Shown here: positions 4,314-60,939 of the stretch, piece by piece | Position numbering within the stretch: the first letter of the stretch is position 1 | How the letters are laid out: the number at the start of each line of letters is the position of its first letter | From: a virus | Direction: 5' to 3' (one strand) | IMG/VR virus record: IMGVR_UViG_3300018954_000017 | Span: 40,256 to 104,255 of that record | Length of the DNA: 64,000 bases | Notes under the pieces: model-generated | What the model saw: only the letters and a program-made list of their open reading frames with translations | Database searches by the model: none | What the model was told of the DNA's origin: nothing | Program-made: the position numbers and the translations under genes

Positions 4314-4316
4314 TGA

Positions 4317-28259: not shown

Positions 28260-31010
28260 TTGGCAAATGTGATTGAGGGACATCAATACGACCCATATTC
28301 GATAGAAGGCTCCGGCATCGTCGGCGGACTGCTGGGCGGCGGCGGCTGCTTTGTCGCTGGTACACTAGTCTGGACTCCGAGTGGACTCAAACCGATTGAA
28401 ACCCTTCAGGTTGGCGACCTCATCGTTGCCTTTAAGCCTGATGGGTCACTTGTCACGTCTGTAGTTGAAGCAACTCATGTCCACGAGCAATACTGCGTCA
28501 ATCACTACACTCTCTGGAATGCTGAGTTTACAGCCACCCCAAATCATCACGTACTGACCGCCAACAACGCCTACAAAGCACTCCAAGACTTCGAGATAAC
28601 CGAATGCCTTGTTGATGCTTTAGGCGAGCTACAGCCGCTTCTGGCGGTTAAAGCTGAACCTGAGTTGACAACGGTTTACAACCTTACTGTTCAACCCTGG
28701 CACAACTACCTTGTGACACCAAAAGGCATCCGCTGTTCAAACGGTGGCGGCGGTAAGTCAGGTGGAGGGAAGGCAGAGAATGATGCCTACAAAAGTAATG
28801 CAACGGCATACATTGTAGAGCTATTGAGTGCTGGAGTTGTCGAAGGAATTGTTGGTGGGCTTCAGGGAATCTATTTTGACCGCACTCCTGTTCAGAATAC
28901 GGATGGATCGCTTAACTTTAAAAACTTTCAATATGATTTTCGTCCTGGCACTCAGAATCAAACGTTTATGCCGGGATATTCTGATGAAATTTCATCAGAG
29001 AAAACGGTAGATCAAGAAGTCAAACAACAATTACCAATTTCCAGAACCGTTGTTAGCTCAGAGATTGATGGCATTCGTGTTCGATTGGCGCTATCGCAAC
29101 AAAAGCAGGAGGACAATGGTGACGTTGTAGGAATGACTTTACAGTATAAGATTTTTGTCAAACAAGGAGGTGGTGCTTTTGAGTTACGGGTGAATGAAAC
29201 TAAATCTGGTAGGTTTTCTTCACTTACTGAATTTGAATATTATCTTCCTGTCAACAATTTCAACAATACAGTTGATCAGTTCACTGTCAGAGTTGAAAAG
29301 GTAACCGCAGATATCGCTGAGGGAGACACTAAGCAGCAACAGACGCTCAAGTGGCAGTCGTATACAGAGGTAATCGAAACAAAACTTAACTATGCGAATT
29401 CGGCTGTTATCGGTGAGCAATTTAATCCAAAAGACTTTTCTTCAATACCTAACCGTCAATATAAGTTAGCTGGCGTCCTTATTCAGATTCCAACTAATGC
29501 AACGGTTAACCCAACAGATCGTGGATTAGACTTTATATCGGATATCTGGGACGGTACGTTCTACACGCCAGCATTAGCTTGTGCCGATCCAGCTTGGATT
29601 GCCTACTACCTAATGACTGATCCCATCAACGGATTGGGGCGTTACATTGATGCTCCCTCGATTGACAAGTGGAGTCTCTATCGGTGCAGTCTTTATAACA
29701 ACCAGATGGTTGGTAATGGACTGGGTGGCACAGAGCGCAGATTCCTTTGTCATACGGTGTTGCAACAGCGAGAGGATGCTTGGAAGGTGTTAGAAGCGGT
29801 CTTCAGCGCTTTCAATTGCAGCCATTATTGGGCAGATGGAACAGTCTATTTTGTTCAAGACCGTCCGTTACTGCCGGGAGAAGAATATAGTTGGCAATTC
29901 ACTCAAGCCGATGTTCAGGGTGGTCAATTCGTCTATAGCTATTCAGCACTACGAACGAGATCTTCAGTTGCAATGGTTACCTGGAACGACCCTAGCGACT
30001 ATTACAATCAAACGATTGAACCTGTAGAAGATGCTAATGCTTTAGCGAAATATGGCTATAAAGAGATAGAGTTTGCCGCATTCGGTTGCATTTCTCGTGG
30101 ACAAGCCATCCGAAAGGGTCGCTATGTACTTTTTAGCAATAATCAAGAAACCCAAACGGTTAGCTTTAGTCCAAGATCTTTTGCAGCTTATGTCAGACCT
30201 GGTGAAATCATCCAAATAGCAGATGCCAAACGAGCCGCTATCAGGTACGGGGGGTTGGTTAAACAGGCAGACTTTAGCAGTATCCTCATAGACTCACCTG
30301 TTGCAATCCTCAGTGATGGATACCGTTTGACCTGTATGATGCCGGATGGAACGTTAAATACTCGTAACATTGTCAATATTTTGGGCACACACACTACCCT
30401 CTTTGTTGATGTAGAGTTTAACGACATTCCTTTACCAGAATCTAACTGGGTTGTTTCTGCTCCAAATGTCCAACCGCAGCTCTTTCGTATCATCAGTAAT
30501 GCAATTGATACTACTGATCCTACAAAACATGTGATAACAGCATCATTGTATATTGCAGACAAATATGACTACATAGAAAATGGATGGGATATTCAGGAAC
30601 AGCCCATACGTCAAACCATTCCAACAGTAGTATCGGCTCCATTGGGTATGAAGTTGACATCTACTACAGTTAACGGCGCACCCACCCTATTTGTTATATG
30701 GCGAAGACCCTTGACCGAAATTGGAGAGATTGATCCGTTTGTAGACTCCTATCAAGTTGAATTATCCCGCGACTTTATTACTTGGGAACAATCCAGAATT
30801 GTGACTAATAATAATACCACTTATCAGAACGTGACACCTGGAGTCTATTACGGACGAGTGCAATCAATAGATATCAGTGGTAGAACATCTGAATTTATTT
30901 ACTCAACAGCATTCACGGTTCAAGTGAATCAAATACCACCAATGCCCATTACAACCGAAACTCAAGACTTTACCAATCCAGGCAATAGTTCAAACGTGTT
31001 CTTTTTCTAA
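28260..31010 (+). CDS. tail tip attachment protein J-like with Hint domain
   Basis: 916 aa from TTG 28260; a GTG three codons later is possible. Residues 30-161 are a Hint (intein-like) domain placed exactly within the glycine-rich N terminus typical of J proteins. After it, SGGGKAENDAYKSNATAYIVELLSAGVVEGIVGGLQG matches the start of lambda gpJ-type proteins, and the rest has J-type barrels (WDGTFYTPALACADPAWIAYYLMTDPINGLGR) and a fibronectin-like domain near 790-890. It forms the tail tip that contacts the host receptor. Last gene but one of the tail module. Confidence 0.85.
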   Translation: MANVIEGHQYDPYSIEGSGIVGGLLGGGGCFVAGTLVWTPSGLKPIETLQVGDLIVAFKPDGSLVTSVVEATHVHEQYCVNHYTLWNAEFTATPNHHVLTANNAYKALQDFEITECLVDALGELQPLLAVKAEPELTTVYNLTVQPWHNYLVTPKGIRCSNGGGGKSGGGKAENDAYKSNATAYIVELLSAGVVEGIVGGLQGIYFDRTPVQNTDGSLNFKNFQYDFRPGTQNQTFMPGYSDEISSEKTVDQEVKQQLPISRTVVSSEIDGIRVRLALSQQKQEDNGDVVGMTLQYKIFVKQGGGAFELRVNETKSGRFSSLTEFEYYLPVNNFNNTVDQFTVRVEKVTADIAEGDTKQQQTLKWQSYTEVIETKLNYANSAVIGEQFNPKDFSSIPNRQYKLAGVLIQIPTNATVNPTDRGLDFISDIWDGTFYTPALACADPAWIAYYLMTDPINGLGRYIDAPSIDKWSLYRCSLYNNQMVGNGLGGTERRFLCHTVLQQREDAWKVLEAVFSAFNCSHYWADGTVYFVQDRPLLPGEEYSWQFTQADVQGGQFVYSYSALRTRSSVAMVTWNDPSDYYNQTIEPVEDANALAKYGYKEIEFAAFGCISRGQAIRKGRYVLFSNNQETQTVSFSPRSFAAYVRPGEIIQIADAKRAAIRYGGLVKQADFSSILIDSPVAILSDGYRLTCMMPDGTLNTRNIVNILGTHTTLFVDVEFNDIPLPESNWVVSAPNVQPQLFRIISNAIDTTDPTKHVITASLYIADKYDYIENGWDIQEQPIRQTIPTVVSAPLGMKLTSTTVNGAPTLFVIWRRPLTEIGEIDPFVDSYQVELSRDFITWEQSRIVTNNNTTYQNVTPGVYYGRVQSIDISGRTSEFIYSTAFTVQVNQIPPMPITTETQDFTNPGNSSNVFFF
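28347..28742 (+). other. Hint/bacterial intein-like domain
   Basis: 132 residues starting CFVAGTLV with PIETLQVGDLI (block A), TATPNHHVL (block B TxxH) and VYNLTVQPWHNYLV (block F), ending CSN. The residue after the terminal Asn is Gly, not Ser/Thr/Cys, so normal splicing chemistry lacks the +1 nucleophile; cleavage or cross-linking is more likely, as known for bacterial intein-like domains. Confidence 0.8.
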
Positions 31011-31021
31011 AAGGTAAAAAT

Positions 31022-31867
31022 ATGACTTACACAAATTATGTTGACGGCGACGGCATCAAAAGAAATCGCAAGGTTCGTAACACAGGAACAACCACAGATC
31101 CTTATGAGAGTTATGTAGTTGATGCAGATCTTGCTAATGCAATGGGTACATCAGCTTCAGCACCTGCAACGACTACTACTGGAACTTGGTCACTCATTAG
31201 TTTGATCAAAGGACTTTGGACAGCATTCGGATTAACCTCACAGGCTTCAGATACCACTGGCACACTAATGCAACGCATCAGAGGTATTGGCGATCGTATG
31301 GGGAGCTTTGGTGATCCGGCGAGCGCTACAGGTTCAATTATGGCTCAGTTGCGGACGATTGCGGAAAGCTATATTCTTCCTCGTGCTTCCAACGCTCAAT
31401 ACTATGCCAGTTTTGTTGGGGGTAATAAGTCTTACAATGGTACTCCGGGTGCTGTTGATGTCGCAGGAACAGGTGGTAACGTTTGTGTTTTTGTCAACCC
31501 TGTTGGCTCAGGAGTTGACTTATATATTCAACGTCTTGTTCTTTCCTCCGACAATGCAGGTCGTTACGAACGCTATCGACAGGCGACTTTAGGAACTCCA
31601 GGTACTCCAGTAGTTAATGTAAACAGAGGCGGCAATGGTTCCATAGGAGTTGGAAAAGTTTATCCTCCAGCACAAATTACTGCTACTGGAGGAAACATAA
31701 GCATGGTTACTTATGTGCCTGCTTCGGCTACAAGTGCTGACGCTGTAGATGGCACCCTGATTCTACGTCCAGGACAAAACTTGTATTGGCGATATCTTCC
31801 CAACGGCAACGTGACTTCTAAATGTGCTGTTGAAGTTGTCTGGTGGGAATTGCCAGCGCAGGCTTAG
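31022..31867 (+). CDS. tail fibre/tip-associated structural protein
   Basis: 281 aa. Helical N-terminal half with a repeated LMQRIRGIGDRMG / IMAQLRTIAE pattern, and a beta-rich C-terminal half (YIQRLVLSSDN, GTLILRPGQNLYWRYLPNG) resembling virion surface proteins. It follows the J-like gene by 11 bp and is the last gene of the tail operon. Its stop overlaps the end of the convergent dnaE gene. A receptor-binding or fibre role is inferred. Confidence 0.55.
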   Translation: MTYTNYVDGDGIKRNRKVRNTGTTTDPYESYVVDADLANAMGTSASAPATTTTGTWSLISLIKGLWTAFGLTSQASDTTGTLMQRIRGIGDRMGSFGDPASATGSIMAQLRTIAESYILPRASNAQYYASFVGGNKSYNGTPGAVDVAGTGGNVCVFVNPVGSGVDLYIQRLVLSSDNAGRYERYRQATLGTPGTPVVNVNRGGNGSIGVGKVYPPAQITATGGNISMVTYVPASATSADAVDGTLILRPGQNLYWRYLPNGNVTSKCAVEVVWWELPAQA

Positions 31868-34800
31868 GTGATCACATCATAAAGCATGAATTGTAGCTCG
31901 TCGTCCTCTTTCGGCTCAACCCTAAATCTCCCAACAAACGCCAACTTATTCTCAATTGCCTCTATAACTTGTGGCTTTGCTAATGCTTTGTAGTAAGCAA
32001 CAGCTTCCACAGTCGTGCCACTGTGGTCTTCAAGCACCAATTCGTACCGAGGGTTCCCAGAAGATTTGGCAATCTTGTAAACTTTGTCGATGATGGCACA
32101 AGCTACATCGACAAAGTCTGGCGGTTCAACTCCATCTTCGTTGACAATTGGAAAGCTATCACGCTGAGATAATTCTTCGACGGGGTTGGATGTTATAAAG
32201 AATCCTGTGAATTCCAATTCTTTCCGTAATCTCTCGTCCATTGTAAAATCATCTTCAATTTCAACCAGATAGAAGTTTTTGCGGTTGTATATCTCAGACA
32301 GCTCCTTTTCTTTCCGAACAATGAATTCAACATCTGCCGTCTTCGTTTTATTTAATGGCTCATTTTCGTAGACAAATGTTTCTAAAGCTTGGCGACTGCG
32401 CTCTAGTCCTAACTTGGTGTATCTCTTTTCAATGGATTCGGTTGTTCTCGCCGCTGCATCATCCATTGCTTCATACTTCTTCTTCCAATCCTGCAACAAT
32501 TTAATTGACTCAATCAACTGCTTGCGATTGTCACAGATGCAATCTAAAGCGCCAGAGTAGGCAAGAGCCGACAGAGCTTTTACGTTGATGCGGGTGCGAA
32601 GAAATATGTCAACTAATGATGTAAATTCACCTTCTTGACGAGCATTGAGGATAGCCTGGATTGCTGTATCCCCTAAATCTTTGATCAGTCGCAAGCCAAA
32701 GAAGACTTTGTTTTCAGAGGATGGTGTAAAGTTCTCACCTGATATATTGATGTCTGGTGGCAATACCTCAACACCTGATTTTTTGGCAAGTTTGATAAAC
32801 TGACGTGCCTTCTTGACATCAGTACAACTCAGGAATGCGGCAATATATTCGGCAGGATAATTGGCTTTCAGGTAAGCACACTGGTAAGCAAGATACGAAT
32901 ATCCAACGGAGTGGCTATTTGAGCAACACAGACCAGATGCCAATAGAAAATTGTGTTCCGGATGGTCTACTTCAAGATCGTAACCTTGACGGAATCCCAA
33001 GAAAGAGATTCGTACAGGCTTCCGTAACACCTTACTCCTGTCCAGCCCAAATCCTGAATTACCTTCAGTAATTGTACCAGAGTAAACCCAGCTTTTCCTA
33101 TCTCCCCAGTATGGGAATTGAAGTTCTCCATCGATAAACGAATTAGTCGCCAAGAGCGTTTTATAATTTCCGCATCCAACATTCTGTCTCTCTGTTGTGT
33201 TCTTTCTAACAACTCTGTCCCGTGGATAGGCAAAAAGTGCCAAACTCCATCCACTTCGATGATTGTCTTGCTGTCCCTGTGGATTAGGTCTATCTGTTTC
33301 TTCCTGCCAGAACAGTCTATCCGCGTATTCCGAATAAACCCCATATGTTCCAATCTTGCAATCAACCACACTTCCATTCGAGAAGCATTCTTGGGTGACG
33401 ACTGAGCTTTGATTGTAATTTCCTGAAATTTCTCTGGATTTTCTTCTCTCCATTTTTTCAAAGGGACAGCACGAGCCTGCTGAATTTCCGGACGCGCAGA
33501 TGTTTTCTTCGCTGTTTCCGAATACTTTTGTCTCATTGCTGGTGTGTGGACTAAAGTTTTGCAATTGTTCACTCTCGTCTTTCTGTGTAACTCCTGACAC
33601 TGGGGGCAAGACCGATAATGCAAAGATTTCTCTTTCTGTGTTGGAACTGTGACCCCACACAATGTGGTTCTGGGTTTCGCTCCTGTTTTGCTGGTAGAGA
33701 TGCAATGAATGCATTCTTTGTGGTGAGCAGTCAGTTTCTTTTTGGAGCTTACTGCTACCCCACACCGAGTAACCCATCTTGAGTATTTTCCAGAGCGGAA
33801 GTTGTCCATCTTTAGTTAGCCATTTGTGATCTAAAGTGCAACATTCGACACTGTTGTCGTCAAATGTAACTTGCCACAAGGGAACCATCCCATGATCATG
33901 TAGAGCTACAACAGTTGACTCGGACAAAGAGCCGTCCGGATTCATTGACAGGACACGATCTCCAGGTAGGCAGTCCTTGATAGGCTTGTTACCACCCATT
34001 ATATAGATTTCTGTGTCTTCGTGTACTGTTTTGTTGAAACCGTACTCCCCGAAAGTTTGAACTTTATCAAAAAATTGGTTTAACTTGACCTCATCAAACC
34101 CCCTCGACGTGCCCCCTTCAAGAAAATCTTTTCTCTCTTTAGGCATCTTATCGACTTTCTTTTTGCCCACAACAGAACGCAATTGATCCGCTCTAGTGTC
34201 GTCAAAGCCAGCTAGAACCTGCGAAGACTTCATTACCGACTCTTGATACACCAGCACACCATACGTGTCCTCTAGAGCCTCCTGAAGCTCTGGGAAGTCA
34301 TATTCAACGGGTTCCTTGCCGTGTTTACGTGCAATATATCTTGGAATCATTCCTGAGTCTAACGCGCCAGGTCGATAGAGTGCATTGACGACAGACAGAT
34401 CTTCAACTGTGCTGGGCTGAAGTTGCTTCAGAATCCCTTGCATTCCTTTGCTGCCAAACTGGAAAATGTCCTCAGTTAGACCACGAGAAAAAATTGTATA
34501 AGTTGCTGAATCATCCATCGGCAAATCATCAACATCTACTGTTTCCCCTCTGTTTTGTTTGATATTAGCGACAGCTTCGTCAATAATTGCAAGATTGATT
34601 AATCCCAAAAAATCCATTTTGAGAAAGCCGAACTTAGGCACCATGTTCATATCATACTGAGTCACAACAGTGCCGTCATCCATCACCATCAATGGAATTA
34701 ATTTCTCAATATCACTCCCAGCAATAACAACACCAGCTGCATGTACGCCAACGCTAGCTAAAGCTCCTGAAACTTGAATTGCTATGTCTATCCAGCGCTT

Positions 34801-37245
34801 GAATTCAGTATCCTTTAGATATCTTTCGCGAAACTCTGGTACTGGAGTGTCTTCAGCAATCATCTTAGTCAGCTTAGTTGGGTTGCCTCGACTAACCGGG
34901 ATCATTTTGGCTACCTGGTTAGCATCCGGAATCGAAATGCCTAGCACTTTAGCAACCTTCTTAATTGCAGCCCTAGATTGCAATGTGCCATAGGTACAAA
35001 TTTGAGCAACCCTTTTACTCCCATACTTCTCTGTGACATACCGAATCATCTCAGCTCGACCACCCGGATGAAAATCTGTATCAATATCGGGCATCTCGCG
35101 ACGACCTTTATTCAAGAATCTTGCAAACGAAAGTCCATAATGAATCGGATCAACTCCAGTAATTCTAGTAGCATATGCCGCTAATGACCCAGCAGCAGAA
35201 CCTCTGCCGACTCCAACACGAATGCCTTGCTCATTGGCGTGACGAATATAGTCTGCAACTACGAGGAAGTAGCTAGCGAAACCCATTGAATTGATAACTT
35301 CAAGTTCCTCAGCCAGACGGTCTTTGTAATTCTGTGGTGGCTCTTCACCTTTGAAGCGATCGCGTAAACCTTCTTCGCAAATGTGAGTGAACCAAGACTC
35401 GTAGGTATGTCCTGATGGAACCTCAAACTCTGGTGTTGTTGGGTCACGGAATAGTTCGTACTCGCTGACCGATTCTGCCAATTTCACCGTATTGCCAAGA
35501 GCTGCATCTACAAGCTCATGTGGTAAGTAGTAAAATCTTTCTGCCAACTCACCTGATTTACCGAACGTCAGATCTCGGTCATATCTAAATGAATCTGTCT
35601 CAAGTTGGCTGAGTGTTTTACCGTACTTGATACAATACAGGATTGAATGCACTTCGTAATGGCAATCTTTCAGGTAATGAGAGTCTGCCGTAATGATAAA
35701 CTGACAACCCAACTCCTGTCCCAGACGGACTAGAGCAAAATTTAACTTTTGGTAAATTTCAAGTCCGTCATGATCTTGTAACTCAATGTAGAAATTTTCC
35801 CCAAACGTCTCCTGATACCACTTTAGAATCTCTCTAGCTCTCTCTGGCTCATCATTGACTATCAGTTGTGGCACTAGCGAGCCAATGCAGCCTGAAGTCA
35901 CAATCAAGCCATCTTTGAACTCCTCTAGTTTTTCAAGGGTGATTAGTGGGTATGGTTTACGTCCCCCACCCTGTTTCTTGTTGTGAATTTCACTCCAAGT
36001 GGTCAGCTTGGAAAGGTTGCTGTAACCTTGCAGACTCTTTGCCATTACTATCTGGTGGAAGCGCCCATTGTGCTTGTAATCACCTTGTAATTGATTATTA
36101 GCTTGCTTGGTCTGCAATAGACTGCTCAAGGGGTGTTCTAAGTATGTTTCGTTTCCAGCAATGAACTTAACTCCAAACTTTTTGCAAGCCTCATAGAGGT
36201 CTGCTACCCCCATCATTGTCCCATGATCGGTGACTGCCACTGCTGGCTGACCAGCTTCTAAAGCAGCTTTAACAATCTCTTCTGGGGATGGCAGACCGTC
36301 GCTATAGTTTGAGTGTAGATGCAGATTGACGAATGAATCACTGAGTTTAACGTCCAGAACCTCGGTTGTCTTGTTCGCTTCGCATAATACGGACTCCTTG
36401 TTATGTTGTTCTTTATCAATCTTAACAACTGTAGAATTAGTTGCGTCAGGCTTCATCAACACTTCATAAAACTCTTTGGGTAATCGAAGGTTTGCAGGAA
36501 TTTTTCTATAGCGCAATAGTCCGGCTATTTGGTCAACCGAATAACCCGCTAGTCCACAGCCAATCTTGGTCATCAAAAACTCTTTATCTGGATGAGCCTT
36601 GATATATCCAAACAGTTCCGACAGTTGCTCATCAATGTAAGCCAATGAGACTGGCTGATTAATTGTTAGATCTTTGGTCACGATTGCGTAAGTTTGACCT
36701 TGCAGACCCCTAGCTTGACCGTAGATCGCTCTAAATGCCATAGCTGCTTTAGCCGCACCTTTACCATGACGACCTTCTGTGTTGGAACCGAAGATAAAGA
36801 TTTGGTTTGGTTGGAGGGTGGTAATCTCGTCAGGAGTATACCGAGTCAATTGGTACTCTACCTCTCTCTCTACTCGATATTCTTTTCCCTCAAACTTGAA
36901 GCCCTTAACCAGAAACTGCTCAATCATCCACTCATACGATCTTTCGTAATCCTCGTCACTAACAAGGAATACTACTGGACGATCGTAACGACACTCAGTA
37001 ATGTCTCGCACAAGCTTCACGATGGCAGGTCTGCGCTCCAAGAAATGAGGCTTACAATCTTTCTTGAACTGCTCCCAGTCGCCAGTGCTGACATAAACTG
37101 CTGAAGCTTCCTGTGGCGGGTATAGCTGCGAATACTGTTGAACTCGAAGTCCACCGAATTCCGGGCGGACTGAGAAGAATTGACCTACGGTGCCCCAATT
37201 GTCTGTGTCGGAATATCGAACGATCTTTAACATTGGTGACTCCAT
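31864..37245 (-). CDS. dnaE: DNA polymerase III alpha with macro-like N domain and intein
   Basis: 1793 aa including a 371-aa intein. Residues about 148-262 carry FIFGSNTEGRHGKG...GLQGQTYAIVTKDL...FLMTKIGCGLAGY, a stand-alone phage protein type (A1S_2505-like) here fused to the polymerase. The PHP domain begins near 303 (LHLHSNYSDG). The catalytic PDIDTDF is at 719-725. The intein (1073-1443) interrupts GFNK/SHSVGYSYLAYQ. OB-like C terminus (YELVLEDHSGTTVEAVAYY). It would replicate phage DNA with the phage DnaB. A good GGAGAG site precedes the ATG. Confidence 0.9.
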   Translation of the reverse strand: MESPMLKIVRYSDTDNWGTVGQFFSVRPEFGGLRVQQYSQLYPPQEASAVYVSTGDWEQFKKDCKPHFLERRPAIVKLVRDITECRYDRPVVFLVSDEDYERSYEWMIEQFLVKGFKFEGKEYRVEREVEYQLTRYTPDEITTLQPNQIFIFGSNTEGRHGKGAAKAAMAFRAIYGQARGLQGQTYAIVTKDLTINQPVSLAYIDEQLSELFGYIKAHPDKEFLMTKIGCGLAGYSVDQIAGLLRYRKIPANLRLPKEFYEVLMKPDATNSTVVKIDKEQHNKESVLCEANKTTEVLDVKLSDSFVNLHLHSNYSDGLPSPEEIVKAALEAGQPAVAVTDHGTMMGVADLYEACKKFGVKFIAGNETYLEHPLSSLLQTKQANNQLQGDYKHNGRFHQIVMAKSLQGYSNLSKLTTWSEIHNKKQGGGRKPYPLITLEKLEEFKDGLIVTSGCIGSLVPQLIVNDEPERAREILKWYQETFGENFYIELQDHDGLEIYQKLNFALVRLGQELGCQFIITADSHYLKDCHYEVHSILYCIKYGKTLSQLETDSFRYDRDLTFGKSGELAERFYYLPHELVDAALGNTVKLAESVSEYELFRDPTTPEFEVPSGHTYESWFTHICEEGLRDRFKGEEPPQNYKDRLAEELEVINSMGFASYFLVVADYIRHANEQGIRVGVGRGSAAGSLAAYATRITGVDPIHYGLSFARFLNKGRREMPDIDTDFHPGGRAEMIRYVTEKYGSKRVAQICTYGTLQSRAAIKKVAKVLGISIPDANQVAKMIPVSRGNPTKLTKMIAEDTPVPEFRERYLKDTEFKRWIDIAIQVSGALASVGVHAAGVVIAGSDIEKLIPLMVMDDGTVVTQYDMNMVPKFGFLKMDFLGLINLAIIDEAVANIKQNRGETVDVDDLPMDDSATYTIFSRGLTEDIFQFGSKGMQGILKQLQPSTVEDLSVVNALYRPGALDSGMIPRYIARKHGKEPVEYDFPELQEALEDTYGVLVYQESVMKSSQVLAGFDDTRADQLRSVVGKKKVDKMPKERKDFLEGGTSRGFDEVKLNQFFDKVQTFGEYGFNKTVHEDTEIYIMGGNKPIKDCLPGDRVLSMNPDGSLSESTVVALHDHGMVPLWQVTFDDNSVECCTLDHKWLTKDGQLPLWKILKMGYSVWGSSKLQKETDCSPQRMHSLHLYQQNRSETQNHIVWGHSSNTEREIFALSVLPPVSGVTQKDESEQLQNFSPHTSNETKVFGNSEENICASGNSAGSCCPFEKMERRKSREISGNYNQSSVVTQECFSNGSVVDCKIGTYGVYSEYADRLFWQEETDRPNPQGQQDNHRSGWSLALFAYPRDRVVRKNTTERQNVGCGNYKTLLATNSFIDGELQFPYWGDRKSWVYSGTITEGNSGFGLDRSKVLRKPVRISFLGFRQGYDLEVDHPEHNFLLASGLCCSNSHSVGYSYLAYQCAYLKANYPAEYIAAFLSCTDVKKARQFIKLAKKSGVEVLPPDINISGENFTPSSENKVFFGLRLIKDLGDTAIQAILNARQEGEFTSLVDIFLRTRINVKALSALAYSGALDCICDNRKQLIESIKLLQDWKKKYEAMDDAAARTTESIEKRYTKLGLERSRQALETFVYENEPLNKTKTADVEFIVRKEKELSEIYNRKNFYLVEIEDDFTMDERLRKELEFTGFFITSNPVEELSQRDSFPIVNEDGVEPPDFVDVACAIIDKVYKIAKSSGNPRYELVLEDHSGTTVEAVAYYKALAKPQVIEAIENKLAFVGRFRVEPKEDDELQFMLYDVIT
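32917..34029 (-). mobile_element. DnaE intein with Thr at position 1
   Basis: 371 aa (DnaE residues 1073-1443) between GFNK and SHSVGYS. It starts TVHEDTEIYIMGG, where inteins have C/S-x-x-x-D-T. Block B is CCTLDHKW (TxxH present), block F GYDLEVDHPEHNFLL, end CCSN with +1 Ser. Thr replaces the usual first Cys/Ser, and Ser replaces the penultimate His. The middle part in this frame is polar and low complexity because it overlaps an endonuclease gene in another frame. Whether it splices is open. Confidence 0.8.
32967..33809 (-). CDS. EDxHD/Vsr-like homing endonuclease, out of frame inside the DnaE intein
   Basis: 280 aa in the +1 frame relative to dnaE, fully inside the intein. N-terminal Cys/His zinc-finger-like units (C33, C51, CPQC 68-71), then a linker with the RPEIQQ/WREENPEKF pattern common in phage homing nucleases. 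The nuclease core is MEVWLIARLEHMGF (E146), KQIDLIHRD (D174), IEVDGVWH (D187, H191), RDRMLDAEI (D208/D212). This matches the Vsr-like EDxHD fold. The ATG lies at the block B side of the intein, and its stop falls inside block F. It would cut intein-free dnaE alleles to drive homing. Confidence 0.8.
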   Translation of the reverse strand: MDNFRSGKYSRWVTRCGVAVSSKKKLTAHHKECIHCISTSKTGAKPRTTLCGVTVPTQKEKSLHYRSCPQCQELHRKTRVNNCKTLVHTPAMRQKYSETAKKTSARPEIQQARAVPLKKWREENPEKFQEITIKAQSSPKNASRMEVWLIARLEHMGFIRNTRIDCSGRKKQIDLIHRDSKTIIEVDGVWHFLPIHGTELLERTQQRDRMLDAEIIKRSWRLIRLSMENFNSHTGEIGKAGFTLVQLLKVIQDLGWTGVRCYGSLYESLSWDSVKVTILK

Positions 37246-38079: not shown

Positions 38080-38745
38080 TCAACTGATTGCTTTGGCTTG
38101 CCAATAGGCTTCAGGTAGACCACGCATCATGTTTTCGTGACGAGCAGCGGCATCAACAAACTTTGACATCCTGTTGAGTAGCGCGGACATATAAAGGATG
38201 TTTTGACCAAGTTCAACAATATCCTCTGGACGATCTACGAACCAGTCATAGATATTGCGAATTACTCGATCATGATACATCCAGCCAACATATTCAGTCT
38301 CAAGTTTACGAATTAATTCATTGAGGTGATAGAGGCACCAGACCTCATAATTCTTTACACTATGAACAAAATCTGGCGCATTCGGCAGTTCGCTTTTGTA
38401 TGCGATTGTTTTTTCTGCCAATTCATCAATGTAGTCTTGTGAAGGAACATTTTTGGGTGAATCGCCTAGATAATGAGCAAACCCGCTATAGCAAGCCATT
38501 GTCATCTCAATGATCTTTAGCTGCTCGTGTAATCCTTCGGTGACAAAGGTCAATTGTTCAATGTCTAAGATTTTGTTGAGAAACATCCGGGCTTCTTCGG
38601 CACTGTGGTAGACCCGACAGATTGAACCATCTTTACGATCTTCAATCTTAGTCTTGATACGATCTCCCTCGCGCACACTCATGTAGTTGGTGTAGCCGCG
38701 ATCACCAGTACCAGGATGGTATTTTGTATGAAGTCTACTTGTCAT
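38080..38745 (-). CDS. PduO-like cobalamin adenosyltransferase
   Basis: 221 aa. The N terminus TKYHPGTGDRGYTNYMSVREGDRIK resembles the TK-x-GD-x-GxT...G-x-R-x-K start of PduO-type ATP:cob(I)alamin adenosyltransferases, and LYMSALLNRMSKFVDAAARHEN resembles their C-terminal LNRLSDxLFxxARxxN helix. The protein is otherwise helical, as in that family. Its ATG overlaps the TAA of the class II RNR gene, an enzyme that needs adenosylcobalamin, which makes cofactor supply a likely job. Similarity is partial, so the call is tentative. Confidence 0.55.
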   Translation of the reverse strand: MTSRLHTKYHPGTGDRGYTNYMSVREGDRIKTKIEDRKDGSICRVYHSAEEARMFLNKILDIEQLTFVTEGLHEQLKIIEMTMACYSGFAHYLGDSPKNVPSQDYIDELAEKTIAYKSELPNAPDFVHSVKNYEVWCLYHLNELIRKLETEYVGWMYHDRVIRNIYDWFVDRPEDIVELGQNILYMSALLNRMSKFVDAAARHENMMRGLPEAYWQAKAIS

Positions 38746-41700
38746 TACTTAGCCTCCGGCATCATGCATTTATCTGAATCGCATCCGACAACACCCTGAT
38801 CTTTGTTCCACCCCCGATCGTACTTCTCAAGTAGTCCCTGAAAATCTTCCGATTGACGACGGCTCAACACTTGCCGCTGTAGTTTATCGTAGCGTTCTTT
38901 AGAGATTGGCTCGAATGGTAAGCGAGGGTAGGTTTCGTTAGCATCAAATCGAGCGAGTAGGGCACAGCTGATGTAGCCTTCGTCATCCGCAATTGCATTG
39001 TAAATAAGATTGCCAACAGTTTCAATTTCGTGCTCTCGTAACTCAATTGTGGCACTCACGTTATGACCTGCATAATACTTCTGAACTTGCATGTAAAAGG
39101 AAAATTGAGCCTCTGCACTGAACTTACTAATGTCAATCTGATCCGCCCCCGGTAAATTAGCCCAAGATACCTCAACCGGAATCTCCACCAGCCACTCGGT
39201 TACCCGTGGGTCAAACGGGTCATCTAACAATCGCCCTTCGTCATCCTTGCAAGATTGCGAAGGTAGCACAGAATAGCCGTAGTCCATACAAGCGAGCGCT
39301 ACAGGGTCATGAGAAGTGAATGTTATGCGACGGATGTACCGTTGCGCCTTGGGCGGGTGCCAGCCTGCCGAAGCGCCTGTAAGAAGACTTTTGGTATTGT
39401 GAGATTTAATCGCTCCTTGCCAATACCAGGAATCATCATCGTCAACTCCTTCAACAGCAACATCATAGCTATAATCTGGGACACTTTCAAATTCAATTTT
39501 TTCAACTTGATATGGGTTGAATTTGAATTGACGTTTGGGATACGGAATAGGATATTTAGCCGCTTTTACACTCATCTGATTTAATTTTTCAATGGATTCC
39601 CATTCAGAGGTCATACGGCTTAAATTCAAAACCCACATAGAGCAAGTTAATTGAAAGTTTTCGCCTTTAGTCTCGTGATTAATTGAAAAACTTAACCCTA
39701 CTGACTCGCCAATTTGCTGAAGATTACGCAGGAAGTTTTCACTAGCGCTTGTTATTCTAACGCAGCCTCTTTCTTCTATTGCACCATCAGAATCAATCAT
39801 ACCACTAAAAAAAGCCAATATACTATTTCGAGAAGATTGCCTCAAAGCTTTTGGGATACGATCAAGATAAGCACTTTTAACGGACTTACCTAATGAATGA
39901 TATTCCATCCAAGCAAATAGCGGCTGACTAGCAAAGCAGAGTTCAGATCGACCACCACGACTGTCTGGGTGCAATGTGCCTTTCAATCCGAATAAAGACT
40001 CTCCAATCTGACTTAATTTTTGGAGAATATTTTCGTTTCCGCTACAAAAACGAACTCGATGTTTTCCGAGACTCATTGAACCGTCACCATAAAGCATTCC
40101 TAAAAAATAAGCAAGTTCAGGGCTTACGTTTTTAGGAGTGTTTATTTTATTTGCTGAACGACCAAATTTGGATTGTTTTTCCGTGTTAAATGGTTTATCG
40201 GAAAAAGAGAATTCGGTTTCATTTCGGTATGTACCTAATTTAAAATCTAACTGCATTCCTGGAATCATTTCCGAGGCAAACACCCAGTCTCCCTGCACAG
40301 ATAGCCTGTGATTAGGGGTCATTCTTAGGACTCGTCCGTTTGCTAAGGTTATCTTGACAAGTTTTAAAGGTTGGTTGGCTATACCTTGATTAACTTGAAT
40401 TCCGCCACGAACACTAAGTTCTAAACATTTAAATTCTCCGCTTCCAGGATTCATTAATTCATCAGCGTACAAAAGACCCTGATCAAAAATGCGAAGTGCG
40501 TTTTTATCCAGACATCCCGCAGGCTGAACAGTTGTGTAACGATTGGGGCGTTTGAGATTGTGCTTGTTGCAATAGTCGAAGAGTTTGACCCGGACGTATT
40601 CTTTCCAGTAGCTAAGATAACGACGTTCAAGATCGCAATATAAAAGACCTTCGTTAAAATCGTTTTCCTCCGAATAAACCTCATCATCTTCATTTATACC
40701 CAGTAGCTTGGCAATCTTATCAATGCGACCGTAATCATCAGCGGGTATATACCACTTTTCAGGTCTTCCTTCAGCCCACCAACGCAACCAATCGCTACCA
40801 AATGCTTGCACAAAAAAGTCAAACAATCCAGTGAAAGACACACCCACAATTGGGTCAAGTTCGCGACTGATACGATAGCGCTCATCAGGAAACACATGAT
40901 GCAGTAGAGCGGCTACAGACAGTGCTCCAGCTTCAAAGGCTAGCTTTTGTTGGGCGAGGTCGAGGGGATTGATTTGGTTGAGGTGGATTTCTGAAAGGTC
41001 ACAGAGAAAATCTTTTCCGAGAATTTCTCCACAATTGTGAGCCACAAAACCTTCAACCACTCCCCAGTGTTCTAGTGGCTCCGTGAAGTCGTAGACTTTT
41101 GCTGTACCTGCTGGATTCACCGATCGAACTTTTGGTGCATTGTTTGTTAAGTGACATGCTAATTTTTCTGTTTTGTACTGAATAGAAAATCCAATTTCAT
41201 TGAAGAAAGTGCAACGATGCTCGTATTTTTGGATGTTGACATCATAGCTTTCTCGACACTGATATACACCATTTGCAAACTCAATCATTTTGGGTTTGTT
41301 TGTTGTATAGTAAGCGTCAATTCCAAAATCTTCACACAAACTGCCCAGTAACTGTTCGACAAGAACAAAGGAAGTTGTTTTGAAGCTGATTCTGCCACCA
41401 GCAATGACAGATCCATTTGCTGAGTACAAACCGTTTAGGAATGCAGCTTTTTCACTCTTATTCCAGTCAGAATAAGTTCCGGGTAATTTTCTTTCTGGTA
41501 ATTGTACAAAATGAAAATCTAGGCTGTGCAACTGTTCATTAAAACCGTACAGATAAATATGTCGATCTCCTTGCCAATTAAACTCGTAATTGTTGGCTTC
41601 AATTAAACTCAAAATATCTGTGTCATCTTTGCCAATGTTTACGACTACACCTAAACACCCTTTTGTGAATGCCGACTGCGAAAGTTGTCCGTCTCCTTGA

Positions 41701-43217
41701 ATAAATCCCAACACTTTGAATTCAACATTATGTTCCGGATTCTTCAAGTAGGGCACCAATTGCTTTTGCTTGCATTGGCTAGCCATGAACTGTCCTTCCG
41801 TTGTCAAAAATACATGGTCGGCAGTGCAGTAGATTCTCTCCTGAGTTGTTAAATTCAGGTAAACGATTCCCTTTTCACCAGAACACCAAACTTTTGATTG
41901 CGATACATTTCCGAACGCATTTATAATTAGTGGTTCTGTATCTTCGAGTTCCTCAAAAGTTTTGTACCCATCTACAGTCAACAAACGCATATCTCCCCGA
42001 AAACAAGGGTTTAATCCTACTCTAGACATCCGATGCTCTAGCTCTGCATCAGATAACTCTAGACCCTTTTGTTTGGCAAAAGCTTGTAAGTTGGTTTTTG
42101 CAATTTGCGGACTCAACTCATAGGCACGTAGGAAGATAGATTTGTTTCCATTATCCAACAGATCAGCATTAGCCCTCGCCACAGCTTCTCCAGCCCACTG
42201 AATCGCTCCCTCGCCGCTATAGAACTGCTTCCGTACAGCCTCAACGCACTCTTGTAACGATGGCTTGTAATGGTATACACGGGTATGATTGCTCATGCGT
42301 AATGCGTCTCTTTCAGGGTCAATGCGCCAAGTTCCGTCAGCATCTTGCACCCAAAGATTCTCCTTCAGTAGCGGTGCATCTGAGTCAAACTGCCTCATAC
42401 CAGCGTAACGGCGGACATTACCTGCCACAATAGTCAGCGCTGGTTCATCCAATAGCAGGCAGACACCCTCAGCATCCAACTGCCGACCAACGTAGCGATT
42501 GAGTACTGCGGCTACACGTTCGTAGAGGCGGGAGAGTTTGATGGGGTTAGCGACTCCTCCAAACCCTTTGATAGGTGTTCCGTCAGGGCGGACGGATGAT
42601 ATATCAACCGAGATGTTTACATGGTTAGAAGTCTCTCCATAAGTTAGTAAATCTTCAAATGCTAGCTTTAGTACAGTCATCATTGAGTCAACCCACCCTT
42701 GTCGGGAATCTCCAACAACAACTTCAACTTCCAGTCCTATTTCTGTTCCATAGGCTTCAACGTAAGTTTTATCCAACCGCACCGCATGCTGCCCTGGCTC
42801 ACCAATGACCCGCACTTGCAAGCTATTGCGAACTGGAGGAAGCTGAGAGATATAACGGTCTTCTAGGACGGCACCTGTCCCACATCCCATCATGCCAAGA
42901 GACATCATTAGACCGAAGGATTCGAGATCGTTGATGTTTGTAGAGTTGCAGTTGTAAGCAGAGTAGAAGTTTTCAGGATTCTCAATCCACTCAGTTCCAC
43001 CAACCCACATCCAGCGACCAGATGGCAGGGTAATTTTCTGTTCCATCATGTCGGCAACTAAGGCGAATTCATCAGCGTTAAACTTGCCAACTTTTGCAAG
43101 TCCTTGGCTAGTTCTTTCGGTTACGTCGGCATAGTTTTCGCGATTGCCTTCCACACGCCGACTATAGGTACGATAGAAAGTTGGAGCACTTGTTGCTGCT
43201 GGAAATTCTTGGTTCAT
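38745..43217 (-). CDS. nrdJ: class II ribonucleoside-triphosphate reductase with two inteins
   Basis: 1490 aa; about 793 aa after removal of two inteins. Extein sequences such as FYSAYNCNSTNI, MMGCGTGAVLED, RVGLNP/CGEI and QPAG/TKSLLTGASAGWHPPK match adenosylcobalamin-dependent monomeric RTPR of cyanobacteria. The enzyme makes dNTPs from NTPs and works here with ThyA, DHFR and Dut in one operon. Inteins at residues 405-728 and 902-1274 lie at catalytic-loop sites, both with proper C1 and HN/C or HN/T ends. It ends in a Cys-containing tail (VVGCDSDKCMM) likely used as the thiol shuttle. Confidence 0.9.
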   Translation of the reverse strand: MNQEFPAATSAPTFYRTYSRRVEGNRENYADVTERTSQGLAKVGKFNADEFALVADMMEQKITLPSGRWMWVGGTEWIENPENFYSAYNCNSTNINDLESFGLMMSLGMMGCGTGAVLEDRYISQLPPVRNSLQVRVIGEPGQHAVRLDKTYVEAYGTEIGLEVEVVVGDSRQGWVDSMMTVLKLAFEDLLTYGETSNHVNISVDISSVRPDGTPIKGFGGVANPIKLSRLYERVAAVLNRYVGRQLDAEGVCLLLDEPALTIVAGNVRRYAGMRQFDSDAPLLKENLWVQDADGTWRIDPERDALRMSNHTRVYHYKPSLQECVEAVRKQFYSGEGAIQWAGEAVARANADLLDNGNKSIFLRAYELSPQIAKTNLQAFAKQKGLELSDAELEHRMSRVGLNPCFRGDMRLLTVDGYKTFEELEDTEPLIINAFGNVSQSKVWCSGEKGIVYLNLTTQERIYCTADHVFLTTEGQFMASQCKQKQLVPYLKNPEHNVEFKVLGFIQGDGQLSQSAFTKGCLGVVVNIGKDDTDILSLIEANNYEFNWQGDRHIYLYGFNEQLHSLDFHFVQLPERKLPGTYSDWNKSEKAAFLNGLYSANGSVIAGGRISFKTTSFVLVEQLLGSLCEDFGIDAYYTTNKPKMIEFANGVYQCRESYDVNIQKYEHRCTFFNEIGFSIQYKTEKLACHLTNNAPKVRSVNPAGTAKVYDFTEPLEHWGVVEGFVAHNCGEILGKDFLCDLSEIHLNQINPLDLAQQKLAFEAGALSVAALLHHVFPDERYRISRELDPIVGVSFTGLFDFFVQAFGSDWLRWWAEGRPEKWYIPADDYGRIDKIAKLLGINEDDEVYSEENDFNEGLLYCDLERRYLSYWKEYVRVKLFDYCNKHNLKRPNRYTTVQPAGCLDKNALRIFDQGLLYADELMNPGSGEFKCLELSVRGGIQVNQGIANQPLKLVKITLANGRVLRMTPNHRLSVQGDWVFASEMIPGMQLDFKLGTYRNETEFSFSDKPFNTEKQSKFGRSANKINTPKNVSPELAYFLGMLYGDGSMSLGKHRVRFCSGNENILQKLSQIGESLFGLKGTLHPDSRGGRSELCFASQPLFAWMEYHSLGKSVKSAYLDRIPKALRQSSRNSILAFFSGMIDSDGAIEERGCVRITSASENFLRNLQQIGESVGLSFSINHETKGENFQLTCSMWVLNLSRMTSEWESIEKLNQMSVKAAKYPIPYPKRQFKFNPYQVEKIEFESVPDYSYDVAVEGVDDDDSWYWQGAIKSHNTKSLLTGASAGWHPPKAQRYIRRITFTSHDPVALACMDYGYSVLPSQSCKDDEGRLLDDPFDPRVTEWLVEIPVEVSWANLPGADQIDISKFSAEAQFSFYMQVQKYYAGHNVSATIELREHEIETVGNLIYNAIADDEGYISCALLARFDANETYPRLPFEPISKERYDKLQRQVLSRRQSEDFQGLLEKYDRGWNKDQGVVGCDSDKCMMPEAK
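39396..40514 (-). mobile_element. NrdJ intein 2 with LAGLIDADG domain
   Basis: 373 aa. Starts CLDKNALRIFDQGLL after QPAG and ends AIKSHN before TKSLLTG. Contains TPNHRLSV (block B), two LAGLIDADG helices (FLGMLYGDGSMS, FFSGMIDSDGAI). Splicing and nuclease parts look complete. Confidence 0.9.
41034..42005 (-). mobile_element. NrdJ intein 1 with LAGLIDADG domain
   Basis: 324 aa. Starts CFRGDMRLLTVDG after RVGLNP, ends FVAHN before CGEIL. In-frame LAGLIDADG helices are visible (VLGFIQGDGQLSQ and AAFLNGLYSANGSV). All splicing residues appear intact. Confidence 0.9.
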
Positions 43218-54162: not shown

Positions 54163-54308
54163 AATCCTCTCTCCTTTTTAAGTGCTTCTTGGATGATCCC
54201 AGCATACGTTAGCGACCAAGTGATTGCAATGGTATTCTCTTGCTCGTCTACAAGCTTGTAGTGTTCGCTTCGACGATCAAAATTTACCACAAAAATATCA
54301 ACTTTCAT
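54159..54308 (-). CDS. 49-aa protein between helicase and RNA ligase
   Basis: 49 aa: starts MKVDIFVVNFDRRSEHYKLV and ends KKERGL. Its ATG overlaps the helicase TGA, and its TGA overlaps the ligase ATG (ATGA at both ends), which strongly supports that it is real and cotranslated. A single beta-beta-alpha-like unit; no family recognised. Confidence 0.7.
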   Translation of the reverse strand: MKVDIFVVNFDRRSEHYKLVDEQENTIAITWSLTYAGIIQEALKKERGL

Positions 54309-57300
54309 GTCTCCCCCTCGTATCCCTCAAAGTACTCCAATTTCAGTCCAGCACACGGTAGCTGCATTAGCTTCTCTAGCTCAACAGGATCACGTTCTAA
54401 CGGTACGAAATACATGGCAGCTTTTGACCGCGTTAGGGCTACGAATGTTGCATATATTTCCTGTTGGAACTGCCAATTTAACATTCCCATTCTGTAGTAT
54501 GGTAACAGATTGATACCCACCACGTAAACTCTCTGAGATTCATCACCTTTTGCCGAGTGAATGCTGCTGTAGATTACGTGTCTCGTCCGGTCTTCCTCTT
54601 CCACCGGGAATACCTCCTCAATCTTCTCTACAAACTCCTTCACTGACTCGGCAGATTGCCCTAGGAACTCGTAACAGTACTCTAGACACCGATAGCGGTC
54701 TTCAGTTGCATCAGCTTGCGTGAGCTGTCCAGCAAGCTTGTAGCGTTCAACGAGGTACTCCTTCTGTTCGAGCAGTTTAGAGTGAAAGTCACCCCACTTA
54801 CAATTCTTACCAATCTGCTTTGCAAACCCGCCCATCTCTTTCGCAATGTCTCGTGCCCGGACAACTCCCTCAACTCCATTGAAAAATTTGGCTTCGAGAA
54901 AAAGTTTGATGAGTGGTGCGACGAACCTGCACAACACTAAATCTCCCGGTTGTACAGATGACTTGACTGTATCAGGATGCATTAGCTCACAGGTGCCGTC
55001 TATGGCATCCTGTCGGGCTTTCATTTGAGGACTGATAAGTGAGGCAAGAGCGACATGACTTTTGGGACAGCGCTGGGATTCTGAGAGTGGGAGAACTTTG
55101 GCGTTGAAGAGTTTAATGATGGTCTCCATTGCTGTAGGTAACGCTGCCATGTACCCTGAGATAGATTGTTTTTCGTCGCCCACAAAAATACAACGGTATC
55201 CGACAAGTTCATACTTTTTGTAGAGCGATATAAAGGCACGGTTAGCATCCTGACAATTATGGGACAAGATGCCGTTGCCGAAAAAGTTGTGGTTATCTTC
55301 TACGTCGATGCAGTAGACCCACTCTTCTTCAGTTTGATTTTTTGTTGAGTCAATATTCCTCCACATTTGCTGCTGCAAGTTTGTGGATAAACTCCAGCTT
55401 CTTTCTTGCAATTGTTGTGATATCGGTAGAGAGTACCGCAGATTGGGCAAGGACGCTTTTGTAAATGTTCTCGTTGCTGTTGGATTCTTAGTATACGACC
55501 ACATTCCCTGCTGCACGTCTTGTACCAAACTTCCCCAGTTTTGATATCGAGACGACTCTGATAGTCTTTGTTGCAGACCGGACATGAATATGTTTTTAGG
55601 GGATTTGTCGCTGAAGCTTTTCTCGCCGCCTTCTGGCAACTGCTGCTGCAATAGTAACGGGAGTAAGCTTGGGTTTTCGTACAGAGATACGTTTCGTGTT
55701 CCGTTCCACAGTGGTTGCAGGGTTTGGTGGTTTGAATTACAGACTGTTTGATCTTTAGTGTTTCCGGAGTGCACCCCGAATTTAGTTTGTAAGAAAGAGA
55801 TGGATGGATATATGGTCTGATTAGTTGAAAAAACGCATCTCGTCCATGCGCTGAAAATGTCAGTATTCCTCCTTTGCTCGTTGGTGTTGCTTGAGAATTG
55901 CAACCCAAAGAAGTTAGGTATTCTGCTGCCAATGCAATTTCTTTCATCGAAAAAGCATAAGTTGAAATCTTTGCTTGACCGCTGAAACTCCCGTCGTCCA
56001 TAAACCATACTGCCAAAGCCAACGGATTTAGTTGACTCAGAACCGCTTCTGTGATTTGTTTTTTCTGACCCGTTGGTTTGAACAGGTGATATATCTCTGT
56101 GAATAGTGGGTGAGAAATTGTCGCAAAACTCCGAACCACTCCACCAAACTCGGTTGGCATTAATGGTGACAGACCTTTGTTCCCAACCCAACGATTCAGA
56201 CTGTCGTGCTTCCACTGAAGATAATCTTGTTGTGCTACTCCATGTCTGAAGGATATCCGGGCATTCCCCATTTTGCCTTTCCACCTGCTGATTCCGAACG
56301 AAGCATCGCCAAGAAGCGACCCAATGATAATCGAACGCTCGGTCGTCGTTAGTTTGTCTGAAGGATTGTAGTTTTTGACCATCGATTTGAAGCAGTGAAT
56401 GTTGTGGTTTTAATTGTCCTGCGTAGATGTATCCCTGCTCTTTCGTGTACACCGGATGATTATCGGTAGCCTGTAGTCCACAAACGTTAACAATAGCTCG
56501 ATTGTGTCGTTGAACTTTATACCATCCAGTAATTTTCTTAACTTCAATTTGTTGGCTAGATGTATTGAAGCTCAAAATGTCTAATGATAGTTTATCTCGA
56601 ACTATTTCGTCAATACGTTTGGTGCGACCGTCTGCAAGACTAACCAATGTGTCGCCCGTGACGCACTCGTCAATCAGCAGATAACTCTTTTCCGCTTTTG
56701 GTGCCTGTGGATACAATTTTAATTTATGTGGCAACCAGACCATATCCGCATAATCGATTACGTGGTCATATGCGCCCATTCGATAGCAGTCTTCCAGCAA
56801 GTCCATTGCAATTTTGACTCCCCACGCAGTTCCAGGTTTACCAAAAGGGAACCTGATCGCAAAGTAATTGACTACCCAATCCATTGAGTCAACATTGTCA
56901 TCGGCTAAGTTCAATCGCGCAAAGTCAAGCAAACTCTTTAGCGACTCTTGCCATCTTTCGAGCAATAGCTCTGCCCTTTCGCTGTCTTCAGGCAACCTTG
57001 GTGGTGCAATTGGGTATCGGCGGCTTTTGTCAGCTATGACTTCTTTGAGACGATTTAGCCCCCATTGAGCTAACTTGTCAGCCTTGTGTTTGTCTACCTC
57101 CGGCATTTCTCCTTTGAACTTTCGGATAAGCAGAGCTTCGCCGCAACCGTGAGCTGTTGAAACATTTACACGTTTTGGTATTCTGGGATCTTGTTCAAAT
57201 GCCAACTTGACAGATTTGTTGAACATCATTACGTTGATTTTTACGTTTGGAGGCAAAAGTCCAACTATTCCTTTTAGAAGAGTACTTTTGCCAGAACCTG

Positions 57301-57475: not shown

Positions 57476-57594
57476 GAACAACCTCTTTGGTGGGTATCAA
57501 CTGTATTTATCGTAACTTAATTCAAACTCAGTGTCAAAGTCAACAGAGGTCGCACTAGTTATCTAATACGACTCTTGTTAACTGCGGTATTGAA

Positions 57595-59922: not shown

Positions 59923-60939
59923 TTAGCTAACAGACAACAGACTTCTATCAAAATCCAACACTTCACCATCATCAAACCTAGTCTGCAACAGGCGCTCTTG
60001 CAGGCATTCGCCCAACACTCCGGCTTGGTGAGCTTCTCGACAGAATGCTTTCCAATCGAAGGAGCCATCGGTGTAGTATGCATAGAGCATCTTCTTAAAT
60101 TGCAGCCAGAACCAACAGATTGCCCGTTGGTCGAAGTGAAACAAGTCTAACTCATATCTCTTCGGTTCGCCATCGGGTGCAACGTTGTACGCGCAAACGA
60201 GTAAACCTTGATTGAGTCGGTACTTGTTCTCAGTCAATTTATTAAATGCCGCTGAGTAAGCCGACAATTGCAGCGCATATTTGATGAGAGGAAAATAGGG
60301 ACTTGGGGGCTTGTACTTATTCCCCCGTGTATACTCAATCGGATTCTTTTTCTTATTGAAATTCTTCCAATCGAGAACGACCAACGCATAGCTCCGGTTG
60401 CCATCGGTAAATAGTGGTTTGACATTAGTTGGCAACAGCCGACAATCGACCAACTTGTAAGCATCAGCCGTGCCACCGAAACCGATTGAGGGGTCATTCT
60501 CGTCGTGCCACATGATTTTCTTTTCAAGGGCAATAGGTTTGATGTAGGGAAAAAGACACTCGAAGGGTTGGATAAGTTGCTCCTCTTCTTCATCCAACTT
60601 GATCTTCGCCCGTAGCTCAACCAAAGCCTGCTGTTGTTCAGCTCCAGAAAGCCCCTGAAGGCGCGAGTGCTCTTGAATAAGCAAATGGTCATGATAGCAC
60701 TTGAAGTGGTTCTCAAGGGCGTTGTGGGTCTTAGTGCCGTGGGTTGCAGCGGTGTCGCGAATTCTCTCAGACTCTTCTTTTCCGACCCGTCTCTGCCAGC
60801 CAGCCAGGAAGGATTTGTCTTCAAATTTGCTGAGGATAGTTGTGACCGAACTAAACTTTTTGTCACCCCACGCATATTTCCTGCCACCGGGGGCGTTGAT
60901 CTGAATTATCTCTTGGTCATTCCAAACGTCGATTTGCAT
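59923..60939 (-). CDS. PD-(D/E)XK exonuclease
   Basis: 338 aa. After SSVTTILSKF and HGTKTHNALENHF (motif I-type Glu helix), FGGTADAYKL supplies the catalytic Asp, VVLDWKN the ExK-like DxK pair, and KYALQLSAYSAAF the motif IV Gln-x-x-x-Tyr. This is the RecB/Cas4/MGME1 nuclease layout. In phages such enzymes resect DNA ends for recombination. First gene of its minus-strand unit, starting next to repeat copy D. Confidence 0.8.
   Translation of the reverse strand: MQIDVWNDQEIIQINAPGGRKYAWGDKKFSSVTTILSKFEDKSFLAGWQRRVGKEESERIRDTAATHGTKTHNALENHFKCYHDHLLIQEHSRLQGLSGAEQQQALVELRAKIKLDEEEEQLIQPFECLFPYIKPIALEKKIMWHDENDPSIGFGGTADAYKLVDCRLLPTNVKPLFTDGNRSYALVVLDWKNFNKKKNPIEYTRGNKYKPPSPYFPLIKYALQLSAYSAAFNKLTENKYRLNQGLLVCAYNVAPDGEPKRYELDLFHFDQRAICWFWLQFKKMLYAYYTDGSFDWKAFCREAHQAGVLGECLQERLLQTRFDDGEVLDFDRSLLSVS

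Follow-up and report, generated by a model that had tools for sequence, protein, structure and literature searches.

The locus examined here raises the question of where an intein keeps its homing endonuclease when its own reading frame seems to have none. The window under study, the last 64 kb (64,000 nucleotides) of the 104,255-bp IMG/VR virus record IMGVR_UViG_3300018954_000017, contains a gene for a DnaE-like DNA polymerase III alpha subunit with an intein, and the ~280 codons of this intein between splicing blocks B and F hold no recognisable domain in the intein frame. In known layouts, the endonuclease is either an in-frame domain of the intein or a free-standing nuclease accompanying a split intein. 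First-pass annotation of the sequence had proposed something else, namely, an EDxHD homing endonuclease encoded out of frame inside the DnaE intein. Our analysis argues that the intein is very probably a mobile element and that its homing endonuclease is encoded by a gene of its own, nested inside it in another frame.

Results

A contiguous intein in a single dnaE reading frame

The dnaE open reading frame (ORF) lies at 31864-37245 on the minus strand and forms one single ORF of 1,793 codons (1,793 aa) without internal stop, with PHP, DNA_pol3_alpha, finger, and HHH_6 domains. The intein is contiguous (32917-34029, minus strand, 371 codons), and the coordinates proposed for it at first pass are exact: junctions and blocks were read from the sequence as GEYGFNK/TVHEDTEI...SGLCCSN/SHSVGYSY, the C-terminal extein resuming after SGLCCSN with SHSVGYSYLAYQ. 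The N-terminal splicing domain (33808-34029, minus), from block A to block B, begins with Thr1 and overlaps the start of the nuclease ORF in block B, while the C-terminal splicing domain with blocks F and G (GYDLEVDHPEHNFLLASGLCCSN; 32917-33000, minus) was assigned by resemblance to DnaE inteins and block reading. Besides Thr1, the block B motif CTLDH, the C-terminal SN, and Ser+1 are present. With its two ends joined, the intein resembles the cyanobacterial DnaE intein 7qil (E = 6.5e-8), and the joined exteins GEYGFNK-SHSVGY agree with intein-free relatives. The Pfam family PF14890 remained below cut-off for the window's own DnaE intein and scored above it in the nested relatives L132 and L138. 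A group I or group II intron was ruled out, as an Rfam scan across the dnaE gene gave no match and the segment is open in the host frame. By these criteria, 32917-34029 qualifies as an intein, for which protein splicing is predicted. Elsewhere in the same protein, an N-terminal extension ahead of the PHP domain (aa 135-265) matches phrog_2072, a family of unknown function that looks macro-domain-like by eye.

A homing endonuclease relative in the +1 frame

On the same strand and in the +1 frame of the intein, an ORF of 280 aa (32967-33809, minus) covers codons 73-353 of the 371-codon intein, beginning in block B and stopping inside block F. Its position, strand, and shift had been annotated correctly to the base, and block mapping agreed with the proposed start near block B and end inside block F. 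Searched alone against phages, plasmids, viral contigs, Pfam, NCBIfam, and PDB sequences, the ORF gave no confident match; its relatives were reached through PHROGs and an alignment built from weak phage matches, followed by a search of IMG/VR. Residues 43-226 match phrog_559 (E = 4e-7), phrog_9529 also matches, and so does phrog_9084, labeled 'homing endonuclease' (E = 3e-4). Conservation in relatives delineates a putative catalytic core (33135-33384, minus) made of E146, D174, E185-x-D187-G-x-x-H191-F, D208, and R224: D174, E185, D187, G188, H191, F192, D208, and R224 are invariant in 18 aligned members, and E146 is conserved in >90%. The N-terminal part carries two Cys/His zinc-finger-like motifs read from the sequence (CGVAVSSKKKLTAHHKECIHC and CGVTVPTQKEKSLHYRSCPQC; 33560-33767, minus), with C16, H29, and C33 invariant among nine nested copies. 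The profile of the family is similar to C2H2 fingers and weakly to AbaSI, and single members weakly match Vsr and DUF559. The Cys/His fingers are thus the probable DNA-binding part of the enzyme.

Altogether, these data support a second frame encoding a relative of phage homing endonucleases, EDxHD/Vsr-like in sequence and predicted to cleave DNA. The annotated EDxHD homing endonuclease accordingly stands as a homing endonuclease relative, on the basis of phrog_559, phrog_9084, and the conserved catalytic residues. The Vsr-like/PD-(D/E)xK catalytic residues are present, but strict membership in the EDxHD family of I-Bth0305I is not established by sequence or structure, and I-Bth0305I was not matched in the PDB sequence searches.

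The second frame is kept in diverged viral inteins

At least 14 further distinct inteins in IMG/VR carry a nested nuclease of this family, in every case in the +1 frame, after merging of duplicate contigs (L129 with L065, L131 with L056, L134 with L130, and L133 with L132). The same DnaE site is occupied in 11 of these 14 (L030, L031, L032, L038, L039, L040, L047, L056, L065, L128, and L130), and the remaining three (L132, L136, and L138) are related inteins of other host genes, which match no PHROG or Pfam family outside the intein. Within the main dnaE set, the nucleases are ~33 to 47% identical to the window copy. Lack of conservation of the second frame and homologous inteins with the nuclease in frame had been named at first pass as observations that would speak against nesting; the frame is kept by these 14 other viral inteins, and no in-frame homologue was found for the EDxHD type. 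Two further inteins, L143 and L165, are shortened (217 and 235 codons) and have lost part of the nuclease or acquired stops in it, but their intein frame is uninterrupted, a pattern as expected because a homing nuclease may decay while the host gene must stay whole. In L033 and L032, dnaE carries extra inteins elsewhere (e.g., ..VHN/SAAG..); a single polymerase gene may thus contain two or three of them.

Chance does not explain the overlap

When synonymous codons are shuffled so as to preserve the intein protein, ~4.4 to 5.7 stops are expected in the nuclease frame, which is open in 3 to 5 of 3,000 shuffles. The annotation had been right that this frame is stop-free, but its expectation of 13 stops in 280 codons was crude. 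The reverse test is stricter: with the nuclease protein fixed, 15.5 to 19.3 stops are expected in the intein frame and none of 3,000 shuffles left it open. A chance +1 ORF, with the intein frame alone coding, could draw on these rare open shuffles of the nuclease frame and on the fact that +1 ORFs of >200 codons do occur, as at 60237-60887 (minus), where a 217-codon +1 ORF without homologue lies inside 59923-60939 and is open in 24 of 3,000 shuffles of the first type, host protein fixed. This pair was considered as a second real overlapping gene and is treated as chance, probably spurious. Since an ORF without homologue also reaches such a frequency, the long ORF alone is modest evidence, and homology decides. 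Chance is already refuted on that ground and keeps a negligible probability, for the +1 protein is one of a conserved family in which catalytic and zinc-binding residues do not vary, and the members of this family in the fractured genes described below are ordinary stand-alone ORFs.

Host stops are avoided at one codon position

The statement that the intein frame must stay open for dnaE is borne out across the family. Intein-frame stops number 0 in all 15 intact nested copies, where synonymous shuffles of the nuclease predict ~8 to 21; not one shuffle of any copy reached zero, and the frame is kept open in the decayed copies too. The expectation is just 8.5 host-frame stops in L047, which lies in a GC-rich genome. 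The avoidance has a simple basis: as +1 host codons begin at the nuclease third position, TAA, TAG, and TGA in the host all need a T there. At the risky third positions, those at which a T would make a stop, T occurs 0 times in 1,530 in the 15 nested copies, whereas it fills 884 of 3,159 safe ones (28%). In the fractured-gene controls, the corresponding values are 33% at risky and 36% at safe third positions. Moreover, because C can replace T synonymously at the third position of every codon box (NNT to NNC), no dipeptide forces a host stop in +1, whereas in the +2 relation a Met codon ahead of a codon beginning with A produces one.

A classical dN/dS analysis of the two frames was set aside as not meaningful, since the four-fold sites of the dnaE exteins have nearly reached saturation; we relied on stop avoidance and homologue controls in its place. 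Four-fold sites seem more conserved in the overlap than in the exteins (0.49 versus 0.31 for L030/L031), with counts so small that this is not used as support.

The same data bear on assembly or sequencing frameshifts, which would have displaced a nuclease truly in frame with its intein as in canonical inteins. Such an explanation could point to L202, a homologue of another intein of the window (described below) that carries its LAGLIDADG_2 nuclease in frame. Yet two compensating errors would leave ~15 to 20 stops in the intein frame, where there are 0, and the same frame recurs in fifteen distinct inteins of different metagenomes. For the DnaE intein, frameshift errors are therefore refuted, with next to no probability left to them.

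Fractured genes as a natural control

Dassa et al. in 2009 reportedly described fractured genes, in which the intein is split and a free-standing EDxHD endonuclease lies between its two parts. Our searches recovered such a set, with nucleases of the family described here at the DnaE site of the nested copies (L033-L036, L041-L046, L135, L137, L139-L142, and L161): DnaE-N ends in the N-intein, the nuclease follows between the halves, and a separate ORF starts with the C-intein, directly next in L034 and L042-L046 and ~11 kb off in L008/L035 (found as L029). The nucleases of these genes are ordinary stand-alone ORFs with their own start, and they show 27 to 57 stops in the frame that is stop-free in every nested copy. 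Sharing nuclease family and site, the two sets differ in that dnaE is divided into two ORFs on either side of the endonuclease in the one and is a single ORF in the other, including the window. Sequence comparison places the fractured set as the closest sister group of the nested set.

Probable expression of the nested nuclease

A Shine-Dalgarno match of at least 4 nt precedes a start codon near the nuclease 5' end in 7 of the 8 first nested copies versus 21% of the background, taken as out-of-frame starts in the same dnaE genes, and a match of at least 6 nt in 3 of 8 versus 1.7%; these figures are somewhat flattering, as nuclease starts were partly picked by eye. Examples are TAAGGAG-5-ATG (L031), AGGAG-6-ATG (L030), GGAGGT-8-ATG (L038), and AAGGAG-7-GTG (L047). 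Internal initiation on the dnaE mRNA is thus supported for the family and would extend to the window copy.

Several points weigh against this reading of the window. Its start codon, ATG 33809, has no Shine-Dalgarno match, which makes expression of this copy the weakest step; residue 1 of the intein is Thr, a rarer choice than Cys or Ser; and searches of cultured phages, plasmids, and GTDB genomes (contigs) yielded no relative. A programmed +1 frameshift yielding a DnaE-intein-nuclease fusion, with no internal initiation, would suit both this start codon and the invariably +1 relation. We consider it improbable, given that in most relatives a start codon preceded by a ribosome-binding site lies at the nuclease 5' end and that the nuclease of the fractured relatives has its own start. 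The window nuclease might also be a silent, decaying remnant, just the intein frame being maintained, as the bare start codon and the decayed copies L143 and L165 would allow; we hold this to be unlikely, as its conserved catalytic and zinc residues are all intact and 280 codons are open. A nested endonuclease with its own initiation remains our preferred reading.

Trees consistent with mobility

In the nuclease tree, the nested copies form one clade (99/96), leaving aside the long-branched L047, and the fractured copies form another (93/85). The splicing-domain tree shows the same nested/fractured split (100/98) with similar subgroups, and therefore intein and nuclease appear to travel together. 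The dnaE extein tree conflicts with both: genes with the intein are interspersed with intein-free ones, which requires at least five changes. L056, which has the intein, is the sister of L058, which has an empty site (100/98 in the dnaE tree); the two are colinear with 68 to 75% DNA identity, and the intein is exactly missing from L058. The L056 nuclease groups with that of L030 (97/89), unlike its dnaE. Tree discordance and empty sites fit homing, for which cutting is predicted.

The direction of change between the nested and split states is not shown by the tree. A fresh insertion would bring ~10 to 20 host-frame stops; the first nested copy may have arisen by way of a split state or from a T-poor gene that inserted (compare the low expectation for L047). 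The reverse step is simple, as one host-frame stop would turn a nested copy into a split intein.

Other nested endonucleases

The same genome holds a second, independent nested nuclease, as judged from its sequence: a LAGLIDADG_2 endonuclease (55303-56382, minus; PF03161, E = 6e-30) nested +1 in the intein of a UvrD-like helicase ORF (54305-57481, minus). This intein (PF14890, 47.2 versus a cut-off of 35.8) lies in the DE/CQD motif and has 0 host-frame stops versus 23 expected. As L202, a gut-phage homologue with an intein at the same UvrD site, carries the nuclease in frame, the UvrD intein is known in both nested and in-frame forms.

A third endonuclease type is found in L079 (also L080 and L081), at 3801-5000, where a predicted LAGLIDADG_3 nuclease (31.6 versus a cut-off of 22.5; phrog_4645, E = 8e-45) lies in the +1 frame of a different intein, inserted at the DnaE site of the window's intein, and has GGAGG-5-ATG at its start. 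Its phage relatives include many annotated endonucleases, some of them intron-encoded.

Two other loci of the window have intein-like features. A B12-type ribonucleotide reductase ORF (38745-43217, minus) matches Intein_splicing at aa 440-728 and has an in-frame LAGLIDADG_3 at aa 1133-1186; it probably contains two inteins, the second canonical. A tail-tip J-like protein (28260-31010, plus) has a Hint-like N terminus (CFVAGTLVWTPSG...CSN/G) slightly under the Pfam cut-offs.

Discussion

We propose a model in which the intein frame would be translated with dnaE and then splice itself out of the polymerase, the part between blocks B and F acting as an open linker. Reading of the same DNA in +1, most likely by internal initiation on the dnaE mRNA, would yield the zinc-finger and EDxHD/Vsr-like nuclease. 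This enzyme may cut intein-free dnaE alleles at the FNK/SH site, repair copying in the whole intein. Purifying selection would hold the polymerase frame open by swapping third-position T for synonymous C, A, or G. Splicing, translation, cleavage, and homing are the steps that we infer here.

The closest published case found is that of ShiLan-type HNH insertions, the ShiLan domain or 'hidden HNH' insertions in phage methylases, where an endonuclease lies out of frame in an insertion that is open in the host frame and spreads in a patchy, homing-like manner (Arsenault, Gosselin, and Gogarten 2025, PMC11855218). These features are shared with the window family. However, the ShiLan endonuclease is an HNH enzyme in the third frame, so that the +1 rule is not universal, and its insertion lacks a splicing domain, is predicted to be retained in the protein, and has no detected ribosome-binding site (PMC11855218). 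The family described here occupies real inteins, with intein blocks present in the window, and its nucleases are EDxHD/Vsr-like or LAGLIDADG, always in +1 and mostly with ribosome-binding sites.

Canonical inteins with in-frame LAGLIDADG or HNH share the endonuclease between blocks B and F and a homing cycle with decay, but their endonuclease is a domain of the intein polypeptide, whereas here it has a separate reading frame. Inteins are stated to carry the endonuclease at one conserved site (PMC6801210), and the nested nucleases occupy that site, L047 excepted. In L047 (5907-7133), the nuclease sits near the intein N terminus, ahead of block B, an unusual site for an intein endonuclease. Homing endonuclease ORFs of group I introns, e.g., that of I-Bth0305I, an EDxHD enzyme, are likewise separate ORFs in a self-splicing element and encode a similar nuclease type (PMC3943268), but that element is an RNA intron, whereas here the segment is open in the host frame and matches nothing in Rfam. 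EDxHD enzymes are described as phage-derived and elongated, with long targets (PMC3943268). Our literature search, whose coverage is incomplete so that priority cannot be excluded, found no description of an out-of-frame endonuclease within a true intein.

A broader and more tentative hypothesis, which we hold to be possible rather than probable, is that 'entangled inteins' would be a general, convergent class. At least three endonuclease types would settle in +1 since host stops can be removed there at no protein cost, and nuclease frameshifts would be selected against through the link to an essential gene. One host-frame stop would then give a split intein, this being one source of natural split inteins. 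This origin can be put to the test, given that the nested and the split forms found at the shared DnaE site are sister groups.

Our study points to a third intein layout, in which an entire nuclease gene overlies the intein and is kept across very diverged viruses, and which would represent a natural case of two interlocked genes of ~300 codons each. Annotation pipelines can overlook such nested genes, and the avoidance of T at one third-codon position may provide a clean rule for computer searches of further cases.
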